Source of the DNA: Bacteroidetes bacterium SB0662_bin_6
GTDB lineage: Bacteria > Bacteroidota > Rhodothermia > Rhodothermales > VXPQ01
Length of the DNA stretch: 64,000 bases
Direction: 5' to 3'
Assembly (NCBI GenBank): GCA_009839485.1
Contig: VXPQ01000047.1
Location: forward strand, 79,696-143,695
Positions 19,640-43,534 of the stretch are shown piece by piece; positions within the stretch are counted from its first letter, which is position 1; each line of letters starts with the position of its first letter. Under the pieces are notes generated by a model. It did not search any database and had not been told where the DNA came from. It saw nothing but the letters and a program-made list of their open reading frames with translations. A program made the translations under genes and the position numbers.

Positions 19640-22600
19640 ATGTTGCGCAGGTGCGTTACTACTGTACTCGTTCTGCTCGTCATGCCCGTTGCAGCGCTGG
19701 CGCAAAACACGGGCAAGCTCTCCGGCGTCATCACCGATGCATCTACGGGTGAACCGCTGCCCGGGGCGAATGTCGTGCTGGGAGGCACCCTGCTCGGTAG
19801 CGCTTCGGATTTAGATGGAAACTACTTCATCATCGGCGTGCCCGTGGGGGCGTATGACGTTACGGCGTCCTTCGTAGGGTATCAGGCCCAGACCATCCAG
19901 CAGGTGGAGATCAATGCCGGCTACACGCGGGAATTGAACTTCAGTCTCGCACCCGGGGCCGAGCTGGAGGAAATTGTGGTCGAGTACGAACGACCGATTA
20001 TCCAGAAGGACGCGATCGGCGCCCCGCGCGTGGTGAACAGCGACGAGTTGGTGTTGCTTCCGATTCGGGGCGTCGCCAATGTGGCCTCGCTGCAGAGCGG
20101 GGTGGTCTCGTCGGAAGGCACGGAGCTTTTCGTACGCGGGGGTCGTGAGCAGGAACTCACGTATTACGTGGATGGGGTCCGGATATCGGGGCAGCAGGCC
20201 CTGCCGCGCGTGGCCATCTCGGAACAGGAAATGCTGATCGGGACCATTCCGGCCAAGTACGGCGATGCGCAAGGGGGCGTGGTGTCGGTTACGACGAAGA
20301 GCGGCGCCGACCAGTTTTTCGGCACGGTGGGGGCCTATACTTCTCAGGGGCTCGACAGTTACGGTCACAGTCTCGGCGAGATTTCGCTGGGCGGCCCGAT
20401 CGTTCCCGGCCGTGTAAGTTTCTTTGCAACGGGTCAGTATGTCCGCCAGGACGATAACGACCCGTACGGCGTATCCACCTATCAGCTTACGGACGATCAG
20501 CTTGCCGAACTCCATGCCAATCCGCAGGTGGTGCGCGCAACCAACGCCGCCGGAGACTCCTTGTATCTGCCCTTCCCCTGGCAGACCGCCCAGGCGGCTG
20601 TCGACAACGGGGAGCCGCTTACGCCGGACTCGCTGGCGGTTCTTCTGAGCATTCCCGAGGGATATACCCTTCATCCGGGGATCATCAATGCGCCGGACAC
20701 GTACCGCCGGGAAGATTTTACGCTGGAGCCGAGCAAAAACAGTCCTTTCAGAGAAACGATCGTAACCGGCAATGTCTCGATCCAGCCTACGCAGACCGTC
20801 ACGCTGCGCGTGGGCGGCTCGTACGAAACACAAAAGTCGGAGTCGCTCAGCTATTTCCGGCATGTGTTCAACCCTGATATCTTTTATCATAACGAGCAGG
20901 ATACATGGCGGGTTTACGGCAGTCTGCGCCAGCGTTTCGCCTCGAATTTCTTCTACCAGATCGACGCGGCGTATCAGGATTACAACTATACCCTGTACCC
21001 CAACGGATTTTCCGATAATGTGGAAGACGCCTTTTCCTACGGAGATATCGATCCCGGGAACGAGTATCTGGACCTTGCCCGCCGCTATTTCGCCGCGCGC
21101 GCCGACGGGTATGGGCCGCTTTATACCAGAGACGGCACTTCGGGTGTAGGCCAGGCCGTGGGCATTGCTTTTTCGCTGCCGGGCAATCCGTTGGCTACGT
21201 TCCAGAAGCAGGACCGGAAAGCATTCCAGATCTCGGGGAACGCCACGGCGCAGATCGGCCTGCACCAGTTGGAGTTCGGCGGCGAGTACCGCACGTTCAC
21301 GGAGCGCTGGTACAGTGTGGGCGGTTTCGGCTTGTCCCGTTACGCCCAGGACGACAATTGCGAGCAGGTAGCCTGCTACGCCAACTACAGCGATTTGCCG
21401 TTCGACGCCTTCCGGGCGCGGACCTCCTATTACGGGTACGATTTCCGCGGGCTGAACGAAGTGGATGACCAGGACATCCAGGGGTATTTCGACCGGACGA
21501 ACCTCAATATCGCGCCGTACCAGCCGATCTACTACGGCGGATATCTTCAGGACAAGATCGAGTACCGCGACCTCATCCTGAATCTTGGCGTACGCATGGA
21601 GGTGTTCGACAACAACGCACCCGTGCTGAAGGACATTTATGCGCCGCGTCCCATTGTCCGCGCGGGTTCGGTATCCGGCACGCCTTCGGGCATCGATCCG
21701 GACGATGCGGTCTACTTTAACGATGCAGGCGATGTGGTCGGCTACCGGGATACGGACGGAAATTTCTTCGACGTGGAAGGTGCACGGGTGGATGCCCTTG
21801 ACATTGTGAGTGATCTGTCCGGTCAGGTCGAGCCGACCGACGAACCTATTTCCACCGCGTTCGAGGATTATACGCCGCAGGCTTCGTTCATGCCGCGCAT
21901 CGGGGTCAGCTTCCCGGTGACCGACCGGGCCGTGTTCTTTGCGTCCTTCAACATAACCAGCCAGCGTCCCACGGAGCGTGCGTTTACGACCTTCCGGTCC
22001 TACGAGGAAATCACGACGCAGAATTCCCGTACGTCGAATCCCAAGCTGAAGCCGGAGCGGACCACCCAGTACGAGTTGGGATTCCGGCAGCGGTTGGGCA
22101 CCAGCACGGCGCTCACGATCTCCGGGTTCTACCGGACGCAGGAAAACAAGATCAGCAACCGTCGTTTGATCGGGGGTTTCCCGTCCTACGGCACGTATCT
22201 GAATGCGGATTTTACCACGACCAAGGGTGTCGAATTCGGCTTCGACTTGCGCCGGACCCGTAATCTCTCGGTGAACGCGAATTACACGCTGGCGTTTGCG
22301 CAGGGCACCGGATCGGACGCCGGCGCCACTTCGGTGATTGTCTGGCGCGGTTCGGTGTTTCCGAACACCATTGCTCCGGCGGATTTCGACCAGCGGCATA
22401 CGTTGAATGCGTCGGTCGACTATCGCTTTGGTGAGGGCGAGGGGCCGGGGATGGGCGGCAGCCGCCTGCTGGAGAATACGGGCCTGAACATCCTGTTCCG
22501 GTATGGCAGCGGCATGGCGTACACGGCCCTGGCCGGCTCGTCGTTCAACGTGAGCGATAGCTTCACCGACGATGCGATAGGCTCGATCAACTCGGCGCGC

Positions 22601-22936
22601 CTCCCGTCCACTACCCGTATCGATGTGCGCCTGGACCGGCGCTTCCAGGTAGGCAATGCTTCGCTGACCGCCTATCTGATCGTGCTCAATCTGCTGGACA
22701 CGCAGAATGTACTGGCGGTTTTCCGGGCTACGGGCCTGCCCAACACCGATGGCTATCTGATGACGGATGGCGGTCGCGGATATCTTGCCACCCAGCCGGA
22801 TCCCGCTTCCGCAGCGTTTCTGTACAACGCGTACATCGGAGGCCCGGTGAACGTAGGGAGCAGGCACACGTCGGCTTCCAGCCTGATGTACAGCCAACCC
22901 CGACGGTTCCGACTGGGATTTGCACTCAACTTTTAA
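19640..22936 (+). CDS. SusC-like TonB-dependent outer-membrane receptor
   Basis: 1098 residues. Signal peptide (LVLLVMPVAALAQ), then a CarboxypepD_reg-like domain (GKLSGVITDASTGEPLPGANVVLGGT..., residues 25-100), a plug domain (about 120-240, including ELFVRGGREQELTYYVDGVRI and AKYGDAQGGVVSVTTKSG) and a long beta-barrel that ends in Phe (FRLGFALNF), as outer-membrane proteins do. It should import a large substrate with TonB/ExbBD energy; the substrate is unknown and there is no SusD-like lipoprotein next to it. Start ATG 19640 has AGGAGG six bases upstream, a strong site. It leads a locus with a secreted 1175-residue protein and a PorV-like protein. Confidence 0.93.
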   Translation: MLRRCVTTVLVLLVMPVAALAQNTGKLSGVITDASTGEPLPGANVVLGGTLLGSASDLDGNYFIIGVPVGAYDVTASFVGYQAQTIQQVEINAGYTRELNFSLAPGAELEEIVVEYERPIIQKDAIGAPRVVNSDELVLLPIRGVANVASLQSGVVSSEGTELFVRGGREQELTYYVDGVRISGQQALPRVAISEQEMLIGTIPAKYGDAQGGVVSVTTKSGADQFFGTVGAYTSQGLDSYGHSLGEISLGGPIVPGRVSFFATGQYVRQDDNDPYGVSTYQLTDDQLAELHANPQVVRATNAAGDSLYLPFPWQTAQAAVDNGEPLTPDSLAVLLSIPEGYTLHPGIINAPDTYRREDFTLEPSKNSPFRETIVTGNVSIQPTQTVTLRVGGSYETQKSESLSYFRHVFNPDIFYHNEQDTWRVYGSLRQRFASNFFYQIDAAYQDYNYTLYPNGFSDNVEDAFSYGDIDPGNEYLDLARRYFAARADGYGPLYTRDGTSGVGQAVGIAFSLPGNPLATFQKQDRKAFQISGNATAQIGLHQLEFGGEYRTFTERWYSVGGFGLSRYAQDDNCEQVACYANYSDLPFDAFRARTSYYGYDFRGLNEVDDQDIQGYFDRTNLNIAPYQPIYYGGYLQDKIEYRDLILNLGVRMEVFDNNAPVLKDIYAPRPIVRAGSVSGTPSGIDPDDAVYFNDAGDVVGYRDTDGNFFDVEGARVDALDIVSDLSGQVEPTDEPISTAFEDYTPQASFMPRIGVSFPVTDRAVFFASFNITSQRPTERAFTTFRSYEEITTQNSRTSNPKLKPERTTQYELGFRQRLGTSTALTISGFYRTQENKISNRRLIGGFPSYGTYLNADFTTTKGVEFGFDLRRTRNLSVNANYTLAFAQGTGSDAGATSVIVWRGSVFPNTIAPADFDQRHTLNASVDYRFGEGEGPGMGGSRLLENTGLNILFRYGSGMAYTALAGSSFNVSDSFTDDAIGSINSARLPSTTRIDVRLDRRFQVGNASLTAYLIVLNLLDTQNVLAVFRATGLPNTDGYLMTDGGRGYLATQPDPASAAFLYNAYIGGPVNVGSRHTSASSLMYSQPRRFRLGFALNF

Positions 22937-34430: not shown

Positions 34431-35552
34431 TTATCCGTATCCTTCGCTCGGAACCAATTCGTTGAGCAGGTGCGCGTTGGTGGGGGATTGTTGGAGATGG
34501 CGAATCAGCGCTTGCATGGCTTCGATAGGAGGCCGCGAATTGAGTGCCCGGAACAGCCTGTGATGCTGATCTATTGCATCTCCAATAAGTCGTTCTTCGT
34601 TGCGTGTGCCGCTTTTGCGCAGGTTGATGGCCGGGAAAATGCGTTTGTCGGCCATTTCCCGGTCAAGCACGATCTCCGAATTGCCCGTTCCCTTGAATTC
34701 TTCGAAAATAACGTCGTCCATACGGCTGCCTGTCTCGATAAGCGCCGTAGCCACGATGGTGAGTGATCCTCCATCCTCGATGTTGCGGGCAGAGCCGAAT
34801 ATCCGCCGGGGGATCTGCAATGCCTTCGCGTCCAGGCCGCCGGAAAGCGTGCGTCCGCTTCCGGACAGGTACAAGTTGAATGTTCGGCCCAGTCTCGTCA
34901 ATGAATCGAGCAGGAGCACCACATCCTTTCCCATTTCCACGAGGCGCCGGGCATATTCGAGCGCCAGGGTGGAGACACGCACATGATTATCTTCTTCCCT
35001 GTCATTCGAGGAGGCGAATACTTGCGCTGCCGTGGCCCGCTTGAAGTCGGTCACTTCCTCGGGGCGCTCATCGACCAGCAGCGCCACCAACGCTACGTCC
35101 GGGTGATTCTGCGTAATAGCGGCGGCCATTTTCTTCAGCAGGATCGTTTTGCCAGTTCGGGGCGGCGCCACGATCAAGGCGCGTTGTCCCTTGCCGATGG
35201 GGGACACGAGGTCCACGACGCGCATGGAAATGTCCCCGGGCGCTGTAACCAGTTCCAGTTTCTCATCCGGGTAGATGGTTTGTCCGGCGTCGAAATCGGG
35301 TATCTCGGCCCAGGCTTCGGGCGGCATGCCCATCACGCTGTCGATTCGGGCTACCTGCAAAGCGCCTTTTCGCCCCGGCCGCAGGGTACCTGTCATGAGG
35401 CATCCGTCCCGAAGGTGAAATTTTCGCACCAGTGGCGGCGATGTAAAGGGGTCGCTGTTTCCTTTCGGCAAATCCGGGCGAAAGGTCCGGATGAAACCGA
35501 ATTTTTTGTCCCCGATCATTTCGAGGAGACCTTCAAAGCGTTTTTCCGACAT
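34431..35552 (-). CDS. rho: Transcription termination factor Rho (short form)
   Basis: Hexameric RNA helicase that ends transcription. 373 residues, shorter than the usual 420: it begins with the cold-shock-like RNA-binding domain (FEGLLEMIGDKKFGFIRTF, LRDGCLMTGTLR) and has no clear N-terminal helical Rho_N domain. The motor is intact: PIGKGQRALIVAPPRTGKT (Walker A), VALLVDERPEEVTDF, DVVLLLDSLTRLGRTFN (Walker B), the Q-loop with SGGLDAKAL, and R-loop FKGTGNSEIVLDR. The ATG at 35552 is the first in frame. It is divergent from the hydrolase gene across 270 bases. Confidence 0.93.
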   Translation of the reverse strand: MSEKRFEGLLEMIGDKKFGFIRTFRPDLPKGNSDPFTSPPLVRKFHLRDGCLMTGTLRPGRKGALQVARIDSVMGMPPEAWAEIPDFDAGQTIYPDEKLELVTAPGDISMRVVDLVSPIGKGQRALIVAPPRTGKTILLKKMAAAITQNHPDVALVALLVDERPEEVTDFKRATAAQVFASSNDREEDNHVRVSTLALEYARRLVEMGKDVVLLLDSLTRLGRTFNLYLSGSGRTLSGGLDAKALQIPRRIFGSARNIEDGGSLTIVATALIETGSRMDDVIFEEFKGTGNSEIVLDREMADKRIFPAINLRKSGTRNEERLIGDAIDQHHRLFRALNSRPPIEAMQALIRHLQQSPTNAHLLNELVPSEGYG

Positions 35553-35825
35553 GAAATTCAGTCAGTTGACGAGGGAAGTATACCCAGCGCATTGCATGCA
35601 ACCACCCTGTCCGCCAACAATAATTCGATGCAGGGTAGGGAACGCGCGCGACGCGCTTCGTACATTTAATACCGCATACGCCATGCGGCGGGAAACCGAT
35701 AGATGAAAAGCTCGACGAATGATTCGACGAACGATCGCAACCCGGTTTCCAGGGCGTGCGGCCCGAAAAACGGAAAACCCGGAGTAAAGATGGGATGTAC
35801 AGAACTCCAACATCATAGCAGGGCA

Positions 35826-36674
35826 ATGAGTTCCGAATCGTCATCGCAAGCACAAAACGGCGCCGAGGCCCCCGGGTCGTACGGAGCGGAAAGGCTGAGT
35901 CGCATCATGACGGGCAGCGCATCGGCCCCCCCGGTTCTCCTTCTTCACGGATGGGGAAGCAGCGCGGACCATATGGCCTCGATAGCCCAGGACCTTGCTT
36001 CGGATTACCGGGTAATGAACGTTGACCTTCCCGGGCACGGTCATTCGCCCACCCCCACTGAGGTGATAGGGATACCGGAGCATGCTGCCCTTATCAAGGA
36101 AATCATCGATACGCACATCGGGGAGCCGGTTACGATAGTGGGGCACTCCAACGGAGGTCGGATTGCACTCTACATGGCTTCGCATCCACTCTATAAACCA
36201 CTCATCCGTCATCTGGTACTTGTCAGCCCCTCGGGTGTCACGCCGGAACGGTCCGTCGGGTACTATGTCCGGCGAACCATCGCAAGTTTGCTCAAGGCCC
36301 CCTTCCGACTTGTGCCCGAGCCGCTTCGTGCCCACGGACTCGACTGGCTAAGGCACTCGCTCGCGTGGCGGGCGCTTGGATCGTCGGATTACCGCGCCGT
36401 CGAAGGCATCATGCGCAGCGTATTTGTTCGCATGGTGACCTGTCATCTCGATGAGCATGTACAGGAAATCGAGGTCCCTGTACTACTTTTTCGAGGCGAT
36501 CGGGATACGGCTATATCACAACGGCAGATGGAATATCTTGTAGACGCCATCCCCGATGCGGGCCTTGTAGTACTCGAAAATGCGGGGCACTACGGCTACA
36601 TGGACGACTTCGCCACGTTCATTGCCGCAACCCGCCACTTTCTGAAAAACAGCCTGCTGAAAAAGCCTGCTTAA
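35826..36674 (+). CDS. Alpha/beta-hydrolase
   Basis: About 282 residues with a complete alpha/beta-hydrolase core: the oxyanion region PVLLLHGWGSSADHM, DLPGHGHSP, the nucleophile elbow IVGHSNGGRIA (Ser in GHSNGG), the Asp in LFRGDRDTAIS and His in NAGHYGYMDD. The substrate is unknown; it resembles soluble esterase/hydrolase members rather than haloalkane dehalogenases. The start is uncertain: ATG at 35826 fits the domain, while ATGs at 35790 and 35703 would add a polar tail. It is 57 bases ahead of a membrane-anchored Mur ligase, so both may act on the same envelope molecule. Confidence 0.82.
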   Translation: MSSESSSQAQNGAEAPGSYGAERLSRIMTGSASAPPVLLLHGWGSSADHMASIAQDLASDYRVMNVDLPGHGHSPTPTEVIGIPEHAALIKEIIDTHIGEPVTIVGHSNGGRIALYMASHPLYKPLIRHLVLVSPSGVTPERSVGYYVRRTIASLLKAPFRLVPEPLRAHGLDWLRHSLAWRALGSSDYRAVEGIMRSVFVRMVTCHLDEHVQEIEVPVLLFRGDRDTAISQRQMEYLVDAIPDAGLVVLENAGHYGYMDDFATFIAATRHFLKNSLLKKPA

Positions 36675-36731
36675 GACAGCCTGCCGAAAACCGGTTTGCT
36701 GCCAAACACCTGACGCCGCACCGGGTTCCCC

Positions 36732-38354
36732 ATGTTCATCATCGCGTTTCTTACTGTCGTTACGACCCTGTTCGCGGGATGGCGCGCGGCGCGGCGGCTG
36801 CGCTATTTTCTGCATGTCTTCCAGTTACACGGCTACAAGTCCGGAGAATTCCGTGCCTGGGTTGTCCATCGTTTTCGTACGCTCGTATTCCGTCTCTCAC
36901 ACAAACTTGCACTTGCAGAGTTGGTTCTCGTAGCCATCGCTGCCGCTTTTTTCGCTCCGTTTCCTGTCGCCGCTGTGGCGTTGCCTCTCTGGGCGGTTAC
37001 CTTCGCCTCCTCGCGCCGCTACCGGAGCGACCGCGAGAAAAAACCCCTGAAGTATACCAACCGGATGCAACGCCTGCTGGCGACCGCTGCCTTGCTGGCG
37101 ATTCTGCCCATTGCAGGGGGATTATCTATCTGGCTCCGGGGCGATCTCGCCGACCTTATCTGGTATCTGGCGGGCCTGTTTCTGGCGGATTTCCTGGCGC
37201 CTGCCTGGGTGCTTGCCGCCGCCGCCCTGATGCATCCTGTGGAACGACGTATTCGCGAGGGTTTCAAGCGGCAGGCCCGCCGCCGGCTTGGCAGACGGTC
37301 CGACCTGAAGATCGTTGCCGTTACCGGGTCTTACGGGAAAACGAGCACCAAGAACATCATCGGAAATATTCTTGGACTGCGTTACCAGACCCTCATTACT
37401 CCCGGTTCCTACAATACGCCCATGGGTCTTTGCCTCGTCGTGAATAACATGCTGCGGGCGGAGCATCAGGTCCTCGTGCTTGAAATGGGTATCCGTCACC
37501 CCGGCGATATGGACGAACTGTGTGGTCTGGTTCGGCCCCATATCGGCGTAGTGACGTCAATCGGGATTGCGCATCTGGAAAGCATGGGAACCATCGACCG
37601 TATTGCGGACGAAAAAGCCCGCATGATCGCCAACATGGATGCGGAGGGTGTGGCTGTTCTTAACATGGACGATGATCGGGTGGCGGCGATGACGGAGCAG
37701 GCCCGCGGCCGGATATGGCGCATTTCCGCACAGGGACATCCGGGGGGCGATCTTGCGGCCTTCGATATCCGGTACGACCATCGCGGAACGTCCTTTCTTG
37801 TGCGCGACAGGAACGGAACGGAGCAGCGTTTCCGGACCCGGCTTCTCGGAGCGCACAACGTAACCAACATTCTTCTGGCGCTGGCGGTCGGATGCGGGAT
37901 GGGGTTGCGCTTGCGCCAGATGACGCACGTCGTGGAGCAGATCGAACCTGTTCCGCACCGGCTTCAGTTGCGCCGGGAAGGCCCGGTGACCATCATCGAC
38001 GACGCCTTCAACGCCAATCCGGTCGGCGCGCTGAACGCCGTGGAGATACTTGGAACGTTCCGCTCGGGGCGTCGCATCATCGTAACGCCCGGCATGATTG
38101 AACTTGGCGAGCGGCAACACGAAGAAAACCGCTTGCTGGGCGAGCATATCGCCGATCATGCGGATCTTGCGCTGCTCGTGGGTCGCAAGCAAACGACCCC
38201 CATCAGGGAGGGACTACAGGCCAAAAATTTCCCGGCGGAAAATCTGCACGTCTTCGATGCCTTGCGGGATGCCCAGGCCTTTCTTGCATCGTTCCTCCGC
38301 GAAGGAGATGTCGTGCTCTACGAGAACGATCTGCCGGATCAGTACGACGAATAG
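36732..38354 (+). CDS. Membrane-anchored Mur ligase (MurF-like)
   Basis: 540 residues. The first 180 hold about five hydrophobic segments (MFIIAFLTVVTTLFAGW; LALAELVLVAIAAAFFA; LLATAALLAILPIAGGL; LIWYLAGLFLADFLAPAWVL). Then comes a complete Mur-ligase: Walker A IVAVTGSYGKTSTKNI near residue 198, VLEMGIRHPGDMDEL, the hinge LGAHNVTNILLALAVG, and IIDDAFNANPVGALNAVEIL near residue 423, all MurF-like. Ordinary MurF is soluble, so this protein may add an amino acid or peptide to a lipid-linked or surface acceptor. Whether the cell has another MurF cannot be seen. It is followed by rnhB after 14 bases. Confidence 0.85.
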   Translation: MFIIAFLTVVTTLFAGWRAARRLRYFLHVFQLHGYKSGEFRAWVVHRFRTLVFRLSHKLALAELVLVAIAAAFFAPFPVAAVALPLWAVTFASSRRYRSDREKKPLKYTNRMQRLLATAALLAILPIAGGLSIWLRGDLADLIWYLAGLFLADFLAPAWVLAAAALMHPVERRIREGFKRQARRRLGRRSDLKIVAVTGSYGKTSTKNIIGNILGLRYQTLITPGSYNTPMGLCLVVNNMLRAEHQVLVLEMGIRHPGDMDELCGLVRPHIGVVTSIGIAHLESMGTIDRIADEKARMIANMDAEGVAVLNMDDDRVAAMTEQARGRIWRISAQGHPGGDLAAFDIRYDHRGTSFLVRDRNGTEQRFRTRLLGAHNVTNILLALAVGCGMGLRLRQMTHVVEQIEPVPHRLQLRREGPVTIIDDAFNANPVGALNAVEILGTFRSGRRIIVTPGMIELGERQHEENRLLGEHIADHADLALLVGRKQTTPIREGLQAKNFPAENLHVFDALRDAQAFLASFLREGDVVLYENDLPDQYDE

Positions 38355-42040: not shown

Positions 42041-43534
42041 TCATCCGGGCTTCGCAGCTGCCGGCTCACGCTTCCTGAGTGCTGTGATCAGGCGGCTATG
42101 GAGTCCGTCGAAGCTGCCGTTGCTCATGATCAGCGCCACATCTCCCGAGCGCAGTGTGTCCAGAAGCGGGGGAAGGAGGCGCTCCGCATTGGGTCGGATA
42201 GTTGCAGCGACGCCGCGGGCTTTGAGGATATCGCCGACGCTTTCCGCATCCAGCAGATCAGCTGCCCTGTCGTTGTGACGTACCGGTGGAGCGCTTATAA
42301 ACACGGCGTCTGCCCGGTCGAAGGCCTGTCCGTACGGTTCTTCGAATATCTTTCGACGGCTTGAGTTGGAACGCGGCTCGAAAACGGCCACGATGCGGCG
42401 GTCGGGCCATCGTTCGGCGGTTGCGCGGACCGTTTCGCTTACCGCCGTGGGATGGTGTGCAAAGTCGTCCACTACAAGGACACCGTTTGCCTCGCCCAGC
42501 ACTTCCTGACGGCGTTTCATTCCGGGAAAAGAGGCGAATCCCTCCGAGATCTGTGTGGGGGTGATGCCTTCGTCCAGCGCAATTGCACAGACGGCCAGCG
42601 CATTGAGCAGGTTATGTCGCCCGCTCATGGGCAAAAAAACATCCGTCTGTTCCCGGCCATGCAACAGCAGCGTAAATCGCTGCCCACCGGGAGCGGGGCG
42701 TACGTTTCCGGCGGCGATCTCCTCGTTTGCGAAGCCGATGCAGGCTACGCGAGCCCGGGTATAGTCTGCCAGCGCCCGTACTTCAGGATCGTTCCCGTTC
42801 AATACAAGAAGCCCCTCGGGGTCGACCAGGCCCGCGAATTCCCGGAATGCTTCGCGATAATCCTGCCAGGTATCGTAGAGGTCTGCATGATCGAATTCCA
42901 GTGACGTGATGACGGCGCTGGCAGGCCGGTAGTGCATCATCTTCGGACGCTTGTCGAAGTAGGCGCTGTCATACTCATCGCCCTCGATGACAAAATGAGG
43001 GCCGGCGCCGACGCCGCACGAAGGGCCGCCGTTTGCGGGCAATCCGCCTACGAGGAAGCCCGGGTCCGCCCCGGCGGCCTGCAGGATATGGACAAGCATG
43101 CCGGTGGTGGTCGTCTTGCCGTGCGTGCCGGCAATAACCAGCGGCTTCCGATCATTCAGGAAGAAGTGTGCGATGGCTTCGGGCAGGGACAACTGGGTGA
43201 GGCCCTGTTCCCTGGCGTACGATGCTTCCGGATGGGTCGGGGTGCAGGCGTTGCCCACGATCACCAGATCCGGGGGCGGATCCAGATGCTTTGCATCGTA
43301 TCCTTCGAGCATGATAATGCCCGCCTCCGCAATCCGCGTGCTCATGGGCGGGTAATAGTGCTCGTCGGTTCCCTGCACCGCATGCCCCGCGTCCTGGAGA
43401 AGTCCGGCGAGGGATCCCATGCCGGTACCGCAAATCCCGATGAGGTGTACGCTTGTTATTTCATCCGGTGCGGGAGGAGCGGGCCGATCGAATATGCGAA
43501 GATGTGCATCGGCGAAGTCGCTTAACCGTTTCAT
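42041..43534 (-). CDS. mpl: UDP-N-acetylmuramate:L-Ala-gamma-D-Glu-meso-DAP ligase Mpl
   Basis: Recycling ligase that attaches the tripeptide recovered from old peptidoglycan to UDP-MurNAc. 497 residues, MurC-like: VHLIGICGTGMGSLAGLLQDAGHAVQG at the N-terminus, IAGTHGKTTTTGMLVHILQ (Walker A), EGDEYDSAYFDKRPKMMHYRP (the Mpl-specific stretch after the Walker region), SGRHNLLNALAVCAIA, and VDDFAHHPTAVSETV. The DAFFDK/DSAYFDKR segment separates Mpl from MurC. It precedes the M19 dipeptidase gene on the same strand, 94 bases apart, and could work with it in cell-wall recycling. Confidence 0.92.
   Translation of the reverse strand: MKRLSDFADAHLRIFDRPAPPAPDEITSVHLIGICGTGMGSLAGLLQDAGHAVQGTDEHYYPPMSTRIAEAGIIMLEGYDAKHLDPPPDLVIVGNACTPTHPEASYAREQGLTQLSLPEAIAHFFLNDRKPLVIAGTHGKTTTTGMLVHILQAAGADPGFLVGGLPANGGPSCGVGAGPHFVIEGDEYDSAYFDKRPKMMHYRPASAVITSLEFDHADLYDTWQDYREAFREFAGLVDPEGLLVLNGNDPEVRALADYTRARVACIGFANEEIAAGNVRPAPGGQRFTLLLHGREQTDVFLPMSGRHNLLNALAVCAIALDEGITPTQISEGFASFPGMKRRQEVLGEANGVLVVDDFAHHPTAVSETVRATAERWPDRRIVAVFEPRSNSSRRKIFEEPYGQAFDRADAVFISAPPVRHNDRAADLLDAESVGDILKARGVAATIRPNAERLLPPLLDTLRSGDVALIMSNGSFDGLHSRLITALRKREPAAAKPG

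Follow-up and report, generated by a model that had tools for sequence, protein, structure and literature searches.

The window, i.e., the whole 64,000-nucleotide stretch of DNA analysed here, contains two adjacent genes on its + strand, separated by 57 bases and followed by the gene of RNase HII. The first gene, abh (positions 35826..36674, +), encodes a 282-residue alpha/beta-hydrolase (Pfam Abhydrolase_1, E 1.1e-27), the partner of the membrane MurF, and its open frame offers a possible earlier start at 35703. The second gene, tmMurF (36732..38354, +), encodes a membrane-embedded MurF-type ligase of 540 amino acids containing the Mur_ligase_M (E 4.6e-43) and Mur_ligase_C (E 1.2e-12) domains. 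A complete hydrolase preceding a Mur ligase had been recognized in a first-pass annotation, and both genes are borne out in position and strand, with the support of Pfam. Judged from sequence conservation, these features are not a matter of chance, since tmMurF is conserved across phyla along its entire length and the catalytic nucleophile, acid and histidine (Ser/Asp/His) of Abh are kept in all 60 of the called neighbours.

Residues 1-189 of tmMurF (36732..37298, +) form a membrane domain of five predicted helices. Hydropathy reveals four peaks (1-19, 64-82, 115-133 and 149-167) and the AF2 model places helices at 2-32, 55-73, 76-92, 110-136, 139-154 and 156-187, with a pLDDT of 95.6 for the membrane domain and 88.7 for the whole model. 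The N-terminal block of about five membrane segments annotated earlier is therefore real, and "about five" appears a fair count for a predicted structure. However, this block had been regarded as an addition to MurF, whereas a Pfam search detected no match in tmMurF to the UDP-MurNAc-binding Mur_ligase N-domain, PF01225; the block replaces UDP-binding domain 1 instead of being added to a soluble MurF. Lys and Arg residues are enriched in segments 20-59, 95-113 and 168-190, all three predicted to face the cytoplasm, and the alignment of tmMurF sequences contains nine invariant membrane-domain residues (Q31, Y35, K103, T109, R111, R114, P169, E171 and A182), the first six of which are placed in predicted cytoplasmic loops. 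Comparison of the membrane domain with the PDB by Foldseek gave nothing significant (best E 1.2), and VIA gave no usable match, the best one being a designed protein (Z 5.4, rmsd 4.0 over 91 residues); such a result does not by itself make the fold a new one.

The catalytic and C-terminal domains (37302..38354, +) comprise the P-loop TGSYGKTS (198-205) and the sequence ENDLPDQY (531-538). In the alignment, the P-loop TGSxGKT and residues E251, H281, K295 and D424 are common to tmMurF and canonical MurF, and the top fold matches (VIA) are MurF crystal structures with Z of 34-36, e.g., PaMurF 4cvm (Z 36.0, rmsd 5.0 over 375 residues). Mur ligases activate an acyl group with ATP and form an amide bond, and the same ATP-dependent chemistry is to be expected of tmMurF from the shared P-loop and catalytic residues, together with the MurF structures as its best fold matches. 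The murF model TIGR01143 scores 243 bits over model positions 69-402 of 418, below its curated cut-off of 288.6. Consistent differences from canonical MurF lie at positions 452-454 (TPG instead of LGD), 466 (N instead of H) and 531-536. At the last of these, the C-terminal KGS motif of canonical MurF, with K531 and S533 in 17/17 rows, is lacking, and ENDLPD occurs in 98/98 membrane-type rows, its presence being part of the criterion by which these rows were selected; the selection dropped none of the called loci, and three uncalled loci carry ENDLPD too. The substitutions T452-P453-G454, N466 and ENDLPD could indicate that another nucleophile is accommodated.

Genome content and alternation with canonical MurF

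The source genome (2.92 Mb, 69 contigs, 95.95% complete) contains six Mur_ligase_M genes, i.e., MurE, MurD, MurC, Mpl, one gene of the FolC type by family resemblance, and tmMurF. The search with TIGR01143 found no MurF in this genome besides tmMurF, and the dcw cluster, whose genes were named from their order and sequence resemblance, reads mraZ-mraW-ftsL-ftsI-murE-mraY-murD-ftsW-murG-murC-ftsQ, with murF absent between murE and mraY. Neither the PF08245, TIGR01143 and PF01225 models nor this reading of the cluster turned up a missed canonical murF. The pair had previously been viewed as a system standing in contrast to a soluble MurF; the genome has no such separate enzyme, and tmMurF occurs instead of canonical MurF, as the only MurF-type ligase. 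As far as genome content goes, tmMurF is thus the sole enzyme for the D-Ala-D-Ala-adding step.

The two types of MurF alternate among related genomes. In the order of the source genome (n = 30, source genome included), 20 genomes have the membrane type only, nine the canonical type only, none both, and one, 77% complete, neither. In an even sample of its phylum (n = 109, genomes at least 95% complete), the corresponding numbers are 26, 82, 0 and 1, and a sample of 119 Bacillota yielded five genomes with the membrane type only, 114 with the canonical type only (one of them as a partial match) and none with both. The even samples of the two phyla add up to 31 membrane only, 196 canonical only, none with both and one with neither. 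Similarly, relatives of Alteribacillus (n = 41) are divided into 25 and 16 genomes, respectively, with none carrying both. Nevertheless, the alternation is not absolute: in a targeted list of 50 genomes, chosen for carrying the membrane type, seven also possess a canonical MurF, so that the module can coexist with MurF. Five Bacteroidales of this list combine the membrane type with a fusion of the MurF-racemase type, and another listed genome (G069) gave no match at the search threshold used. Absences are weaker evidence in this list since many of its genomes are metagenome assemblies. As a separate observation, one genome of the own phylum (G191), although 99% complete, displays no MurF-type match at E 1e-48.

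A scan of genome contigs identified at least 580 confirmed relatives of tmMurF, of which the best 80 were studied; these belong to the Rhodothermota, Balneolota, Bacteroidales, Bacillota, Poribacteria and one bin labelled Thiomargarita, and all 80 loci (L050-L129) carry ENDLPD. In a tree of the catalytic domain (72 sequences; a quick search with SH-aLRT branch support and no bootstrap), 49 membrane-type rows are separated by one branch (SH-aLRT 95) from 17 canonical rows. The Muribaculaceae sequences are nested within the Bacillota, as would be expected for lateral transfer. Since both types are present within the own order, the Bacteroidota and the relatives of Alteribacillus, the swap from MurF to the membrane type probably happened more than once. 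In one Poribacterium (L072), the gene order is ftsI-murE-abh-tmMurF-ddl-mraY-murD-ftsW, where the trio abh-tmMurF-ddl occupies the dcw slot of murF.

tmMurF might instead belong to a separate system modifying a surface polymer or a precursor, as supposed in the first-pass annotation, a true MurF having been overlooked. The coexisting canonical MurF of the seven targeted genomes and the sub-cut-off TIGR01143 score would suit such a system. Yet a second murF is absent from the source genome and from nearly all the others, including single-contig genomes of the own order that are 96-100% complete, and both the linkage to Ddl and the murF slot in L072 speak against it, which makes a separate system very improbable.

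Apart from tmMurF, a second, short MurF-like ligase of about 380 amino acids with a KGSH motif, devoid of both the N-domain and the membrane block, adjoins its own Ddl in G080 (L163:1555-2706). Similar short frames of 368-382 amino acids occur in G237, G257 and G273 and, in Bacillota, beside canonical MurF.

The hydrolase and Ddl as co-inherited partners

Abh lies immediately upstream of tmMurF in 67 of the best 80 loci among the at least 580 relatives, according to an HMM recount that also covers genes lying under antisense frames (e.g., in L079, L115 and L127). Genome-wide, its subfamily is present in 91/92 membrane-type genomes versus 0/25 canonical-only genomes, so that the conservation of the hydrolase neighbour, which the first-pass annotation had made a point to survey, is confirmed. 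The figure of 91/92 combines 48/49 and 44/45 genome handles, from which a handle counted twice (leaving 92/93) and then a genome present under two handles were removed; by coordinates, G006 is the same genome as G035, and G038 the same as G211. One genome (G042) was scored positive on a partial match of 158.7 bits, whereas full-length members all reach at least 245 bits and the best other hydrolase of the canonical-only genomes 142 bits. Abh is located on a different contig from tmMurF in seven Balneolota genomes and in the Thiomargarita bin, eight cases in all, so that hitch-hiking in an operon does not suffice to explain the link. The sole tested membrane-MurF genome without Abh is a Rhodothermus MAG (G030, locus L050); its close relatives G007 and G021 retain Abh near tmMurF, and the case may correspond either to an assembly loss or to a true loss.

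Residues S108, D227 and H255 of Abh are invariant in the 20/20 aligned sequences, and the lid of the family carries a GSxDY motif. Searching for a function among relatives was uninformative, as both the PDB and NCBIfam yielded generic hydrolases, those of NCBIfam far under the cut-offs. A single-frame fusion of Abh with tmMurF, considered for G023, was discarded because the coordinates of the 783- and 435-residue frames correspond to different frames.

The third partner is a dedicated Ddl, whose gene lies immediately downstream of tmMurF in 52 of the best 80 loci among the at least 580 relatives, often in the order abh-tmMurF-ddl. In the source genome it is unlinked to abh-tmMurF and lies outside the window. 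The two-gene system proposed earlier is right about the hydrolase, a co-inherited partner, but it misses this third member. A profile built from module Ddls, whose gap in bit score is hence partly built in, scores at least 430 bits in 41/41 membrane-type genomes, and none of 39 canonical-only genomes reaches this value (maximum 378). As an independent check, a Ddl tree gathers the module Ddls, including that of the source genome, into one clade (SH-aLRT 100), from which even the other Ddl encoded by these organisms is excluded; the Ddl of L075, under the label threshold of 420 bits, is nevertheless a module gene and sits inside this clade. Near the end of the catalytic region, module Ddls display a 4-residue deletion and the signature PGS..FYLWE, where other Ddls have PGFT..SMYP; this region is presumably the site for the second D-Ala.

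In this respect, the Ddl might produce D-Ala-X or a C-terminally altered dipeptide, which tmMurF would attach and Abh would hydrolyse or trim. Such a scheme would account for the deletion and signature of the module Ddl, for the changes in the C-terminal domain of tmMurF (452-454, 466 and 531-536) and for the nearly constant presence of Abh. The equivalents of Tyr216 and Ser150, which mark D-Ala-D-Ala ligases according to PMC7691350, are however kept in 47/48 module Ddls (the remaining one being cut off by a contig end) and in 16/16, respectively, and an altered dipeptide is accordingly unlikely.

Proposed reaction and acceptor

Comparison among genomes shows tmMurF to be the sole MurF-type gene of its genome, to alternate with MurF and to be inherited together with Abh and Ddl. 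From these data and the sequence features, tmMurF is rather likely to be an enzyme of MurF function which, in a module with Abh and Ddl, replaces the canonical soluble MurF. Its reaction would be the ATP-dependent ligation of D-Ala-D-Ala to a MurNAc-tripeptide, as we infer from its likeness to MurF.

With regard to the acceptor, a lipid-linked MurNAc-tripeptide (lipid I or lipid II), to which D-Ala-D-Ala would be added after MraY, has about an even chance of being the substrate. It is favoured by the loss of the UDP-binding domain and by the conserved basic loops at the cytoplasmic face of the membrane. MraY would first transfer the MurNAc-tripeptide to undecaprenyl phosphate, and tmMurF would then act on lipid I or II. 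A substrate on the membrane side, possibly lipid-linked, as already envisaged in the first-pass annotation, remains the most natural reading, but not as part of an extra modification system. A comparable situation is offered by MurT, which lacks a UDP-binding domain and acts on lipid II; the authors of PMC6113224 argue that the pyrophosphate lies at the boundary of the N-terminal and middle domains, and that with lipid II as substrate a UDP domain would run into the membrane. In tmMurF, the membrane helices with their invariant loop residues stand at precisely this position.

It is also possible, at less than an even chance, that tmMurF is an ordinary MurF acting on soluble UDP-MurNAc-tripeptide, the membrane block serving as an anchor near MraY and the loops holding the UDP. 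Its status as sole MurF and the alternation fit such an enzyme equally well, tmMurF precedes ddl and mraY directly in L072, and the invariant basic loops would be able to accommodate either UDP or a lipid pyrophosphate. On the other hand, PF01225 is absent, the 190-residue block is modelled as all-helical with no significant match in the PDB, and invariant Q31, Y35, K103, T109, R111 and R114 would be needless in a mere anchor.

Returning to the lipid-linked acceptor, Abh would, on this face of the membrane too, edit or mature the stem peptide or the lipid-linked substrate, a doubtful assignment. The need for a hydrolase is indeed a point against our main reading, as a simple replacement of MurF does not account for it. 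An altered order of precursor synthesis in whole lineages, in which MraY would operate before a membrane MurF assisted by its own Ddl and by Abh as an all but obligatory serine hydrolase at the membrane face, is put forward tentatively, at somewhat under an even chance.

Comparison with known systems

Canonical MurF (TIGR01143; 4cvm, 1gg4) shares with tmMurF the middle and C-terminal domains, the ATP site, the catalytic residues, the gene link to Ddl, the status of sole MurF-type gene and, in one genome, the dcw slot. It differs by its UDP-binding domain 1, in place of the five-helix membrane domain, and by its terminal KGS motif instead of ENDLPD; in addition, tmMurF scores below the TIGR01143 cut-off, has a hydrolase partner and forms a separate clade. 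Similarly, the canonical ddl-murF pair brings Ddl and MurF functions side by side, whereas in the module the Ddl forms a clade apart and is encoded downstream, abh joins the pair and the ligase is embedded in the membrane. Like the module, MurT/GatD combines a partner gene with a Mur ligase that has no UDP-binding N-domain, and the tmMurF model superimposes on the MurT structure (VIA Z 28.5, rmsd 3.1, 342 aligned). However, the MurT model matches tmMurF weakly (E 3.3e-4), MurT lacks the five-helix membrane domain and does not take the place of MurF, and its partner GatD is a glutamine amidotransferase, whereas the conserved neighbours of tmMurF are abh and ddl. The lipid-linked precursor is the substrate reported for MurT in PMC6113224, and the one proposed for tmMurF. 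A second MurF-type sequence of many Bacteroidota, the MurF-alanine racemase fusion (NF008897), retains the N-domain, unlike tmMurF. Frames of 800-900 amino acids, which we assume from their length to be such fusions, are present alongside canonical MurF or, in the case of five Bacteroidales genomes, alongside tmMurF. Taken on sequence features, tmMurF departs from the defining features of both canonical MurF and MurT, while genome content makes it MurF-like. The parts of the module belong to known superfamilies, and a literature search covering titles and abstract openings, with subscription papers and preprints mostly outside it, found no description of a membrane-embedded MurF or of an abh-tmMurF-ddl trio.

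Textbooks and drug discovery alike take it as universal that four soluble ligases make UDP-MurNAc-pentapeptide. An essential step of the wall peptide, the addition of its last two amino acids, apparently takes place here at the membrane, and this replacement of MurF is met again in distantly related bacterial groups. Should the membrane module stand in for MurF in Rhodothermota, Balneolota, many Bacillota and some Bacteroidales, the substrates met there by MraY, MurG and the flippases, as well as by MurF inhibitors, would be different, and the uncharacterised hydrolase Abh would become a candidate essential cell-wall enzyme. The module offers a directly testable claim on the order of the peptidoglycan precursor steps.

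Three other features of the window deserve mention. An Mpl-like murein peptide ligase is encoded at 42041-43534 (-), about 4 kb from tmMurF (TIGR01081 370 bits, cut-off 388.7), which points to a recycling of tripeptide onto UDP-MurNAc in the source organism. Rho, at 34431-35552 (-), is only 373 amino acids long, matches the Rho models from position 51 and is devoid of the N-terminal part. Finally, a 1028-residue open frame at 19811-22897 (-) is nearly all antisense to a 1098-residue frame at 19640-22936 (+).
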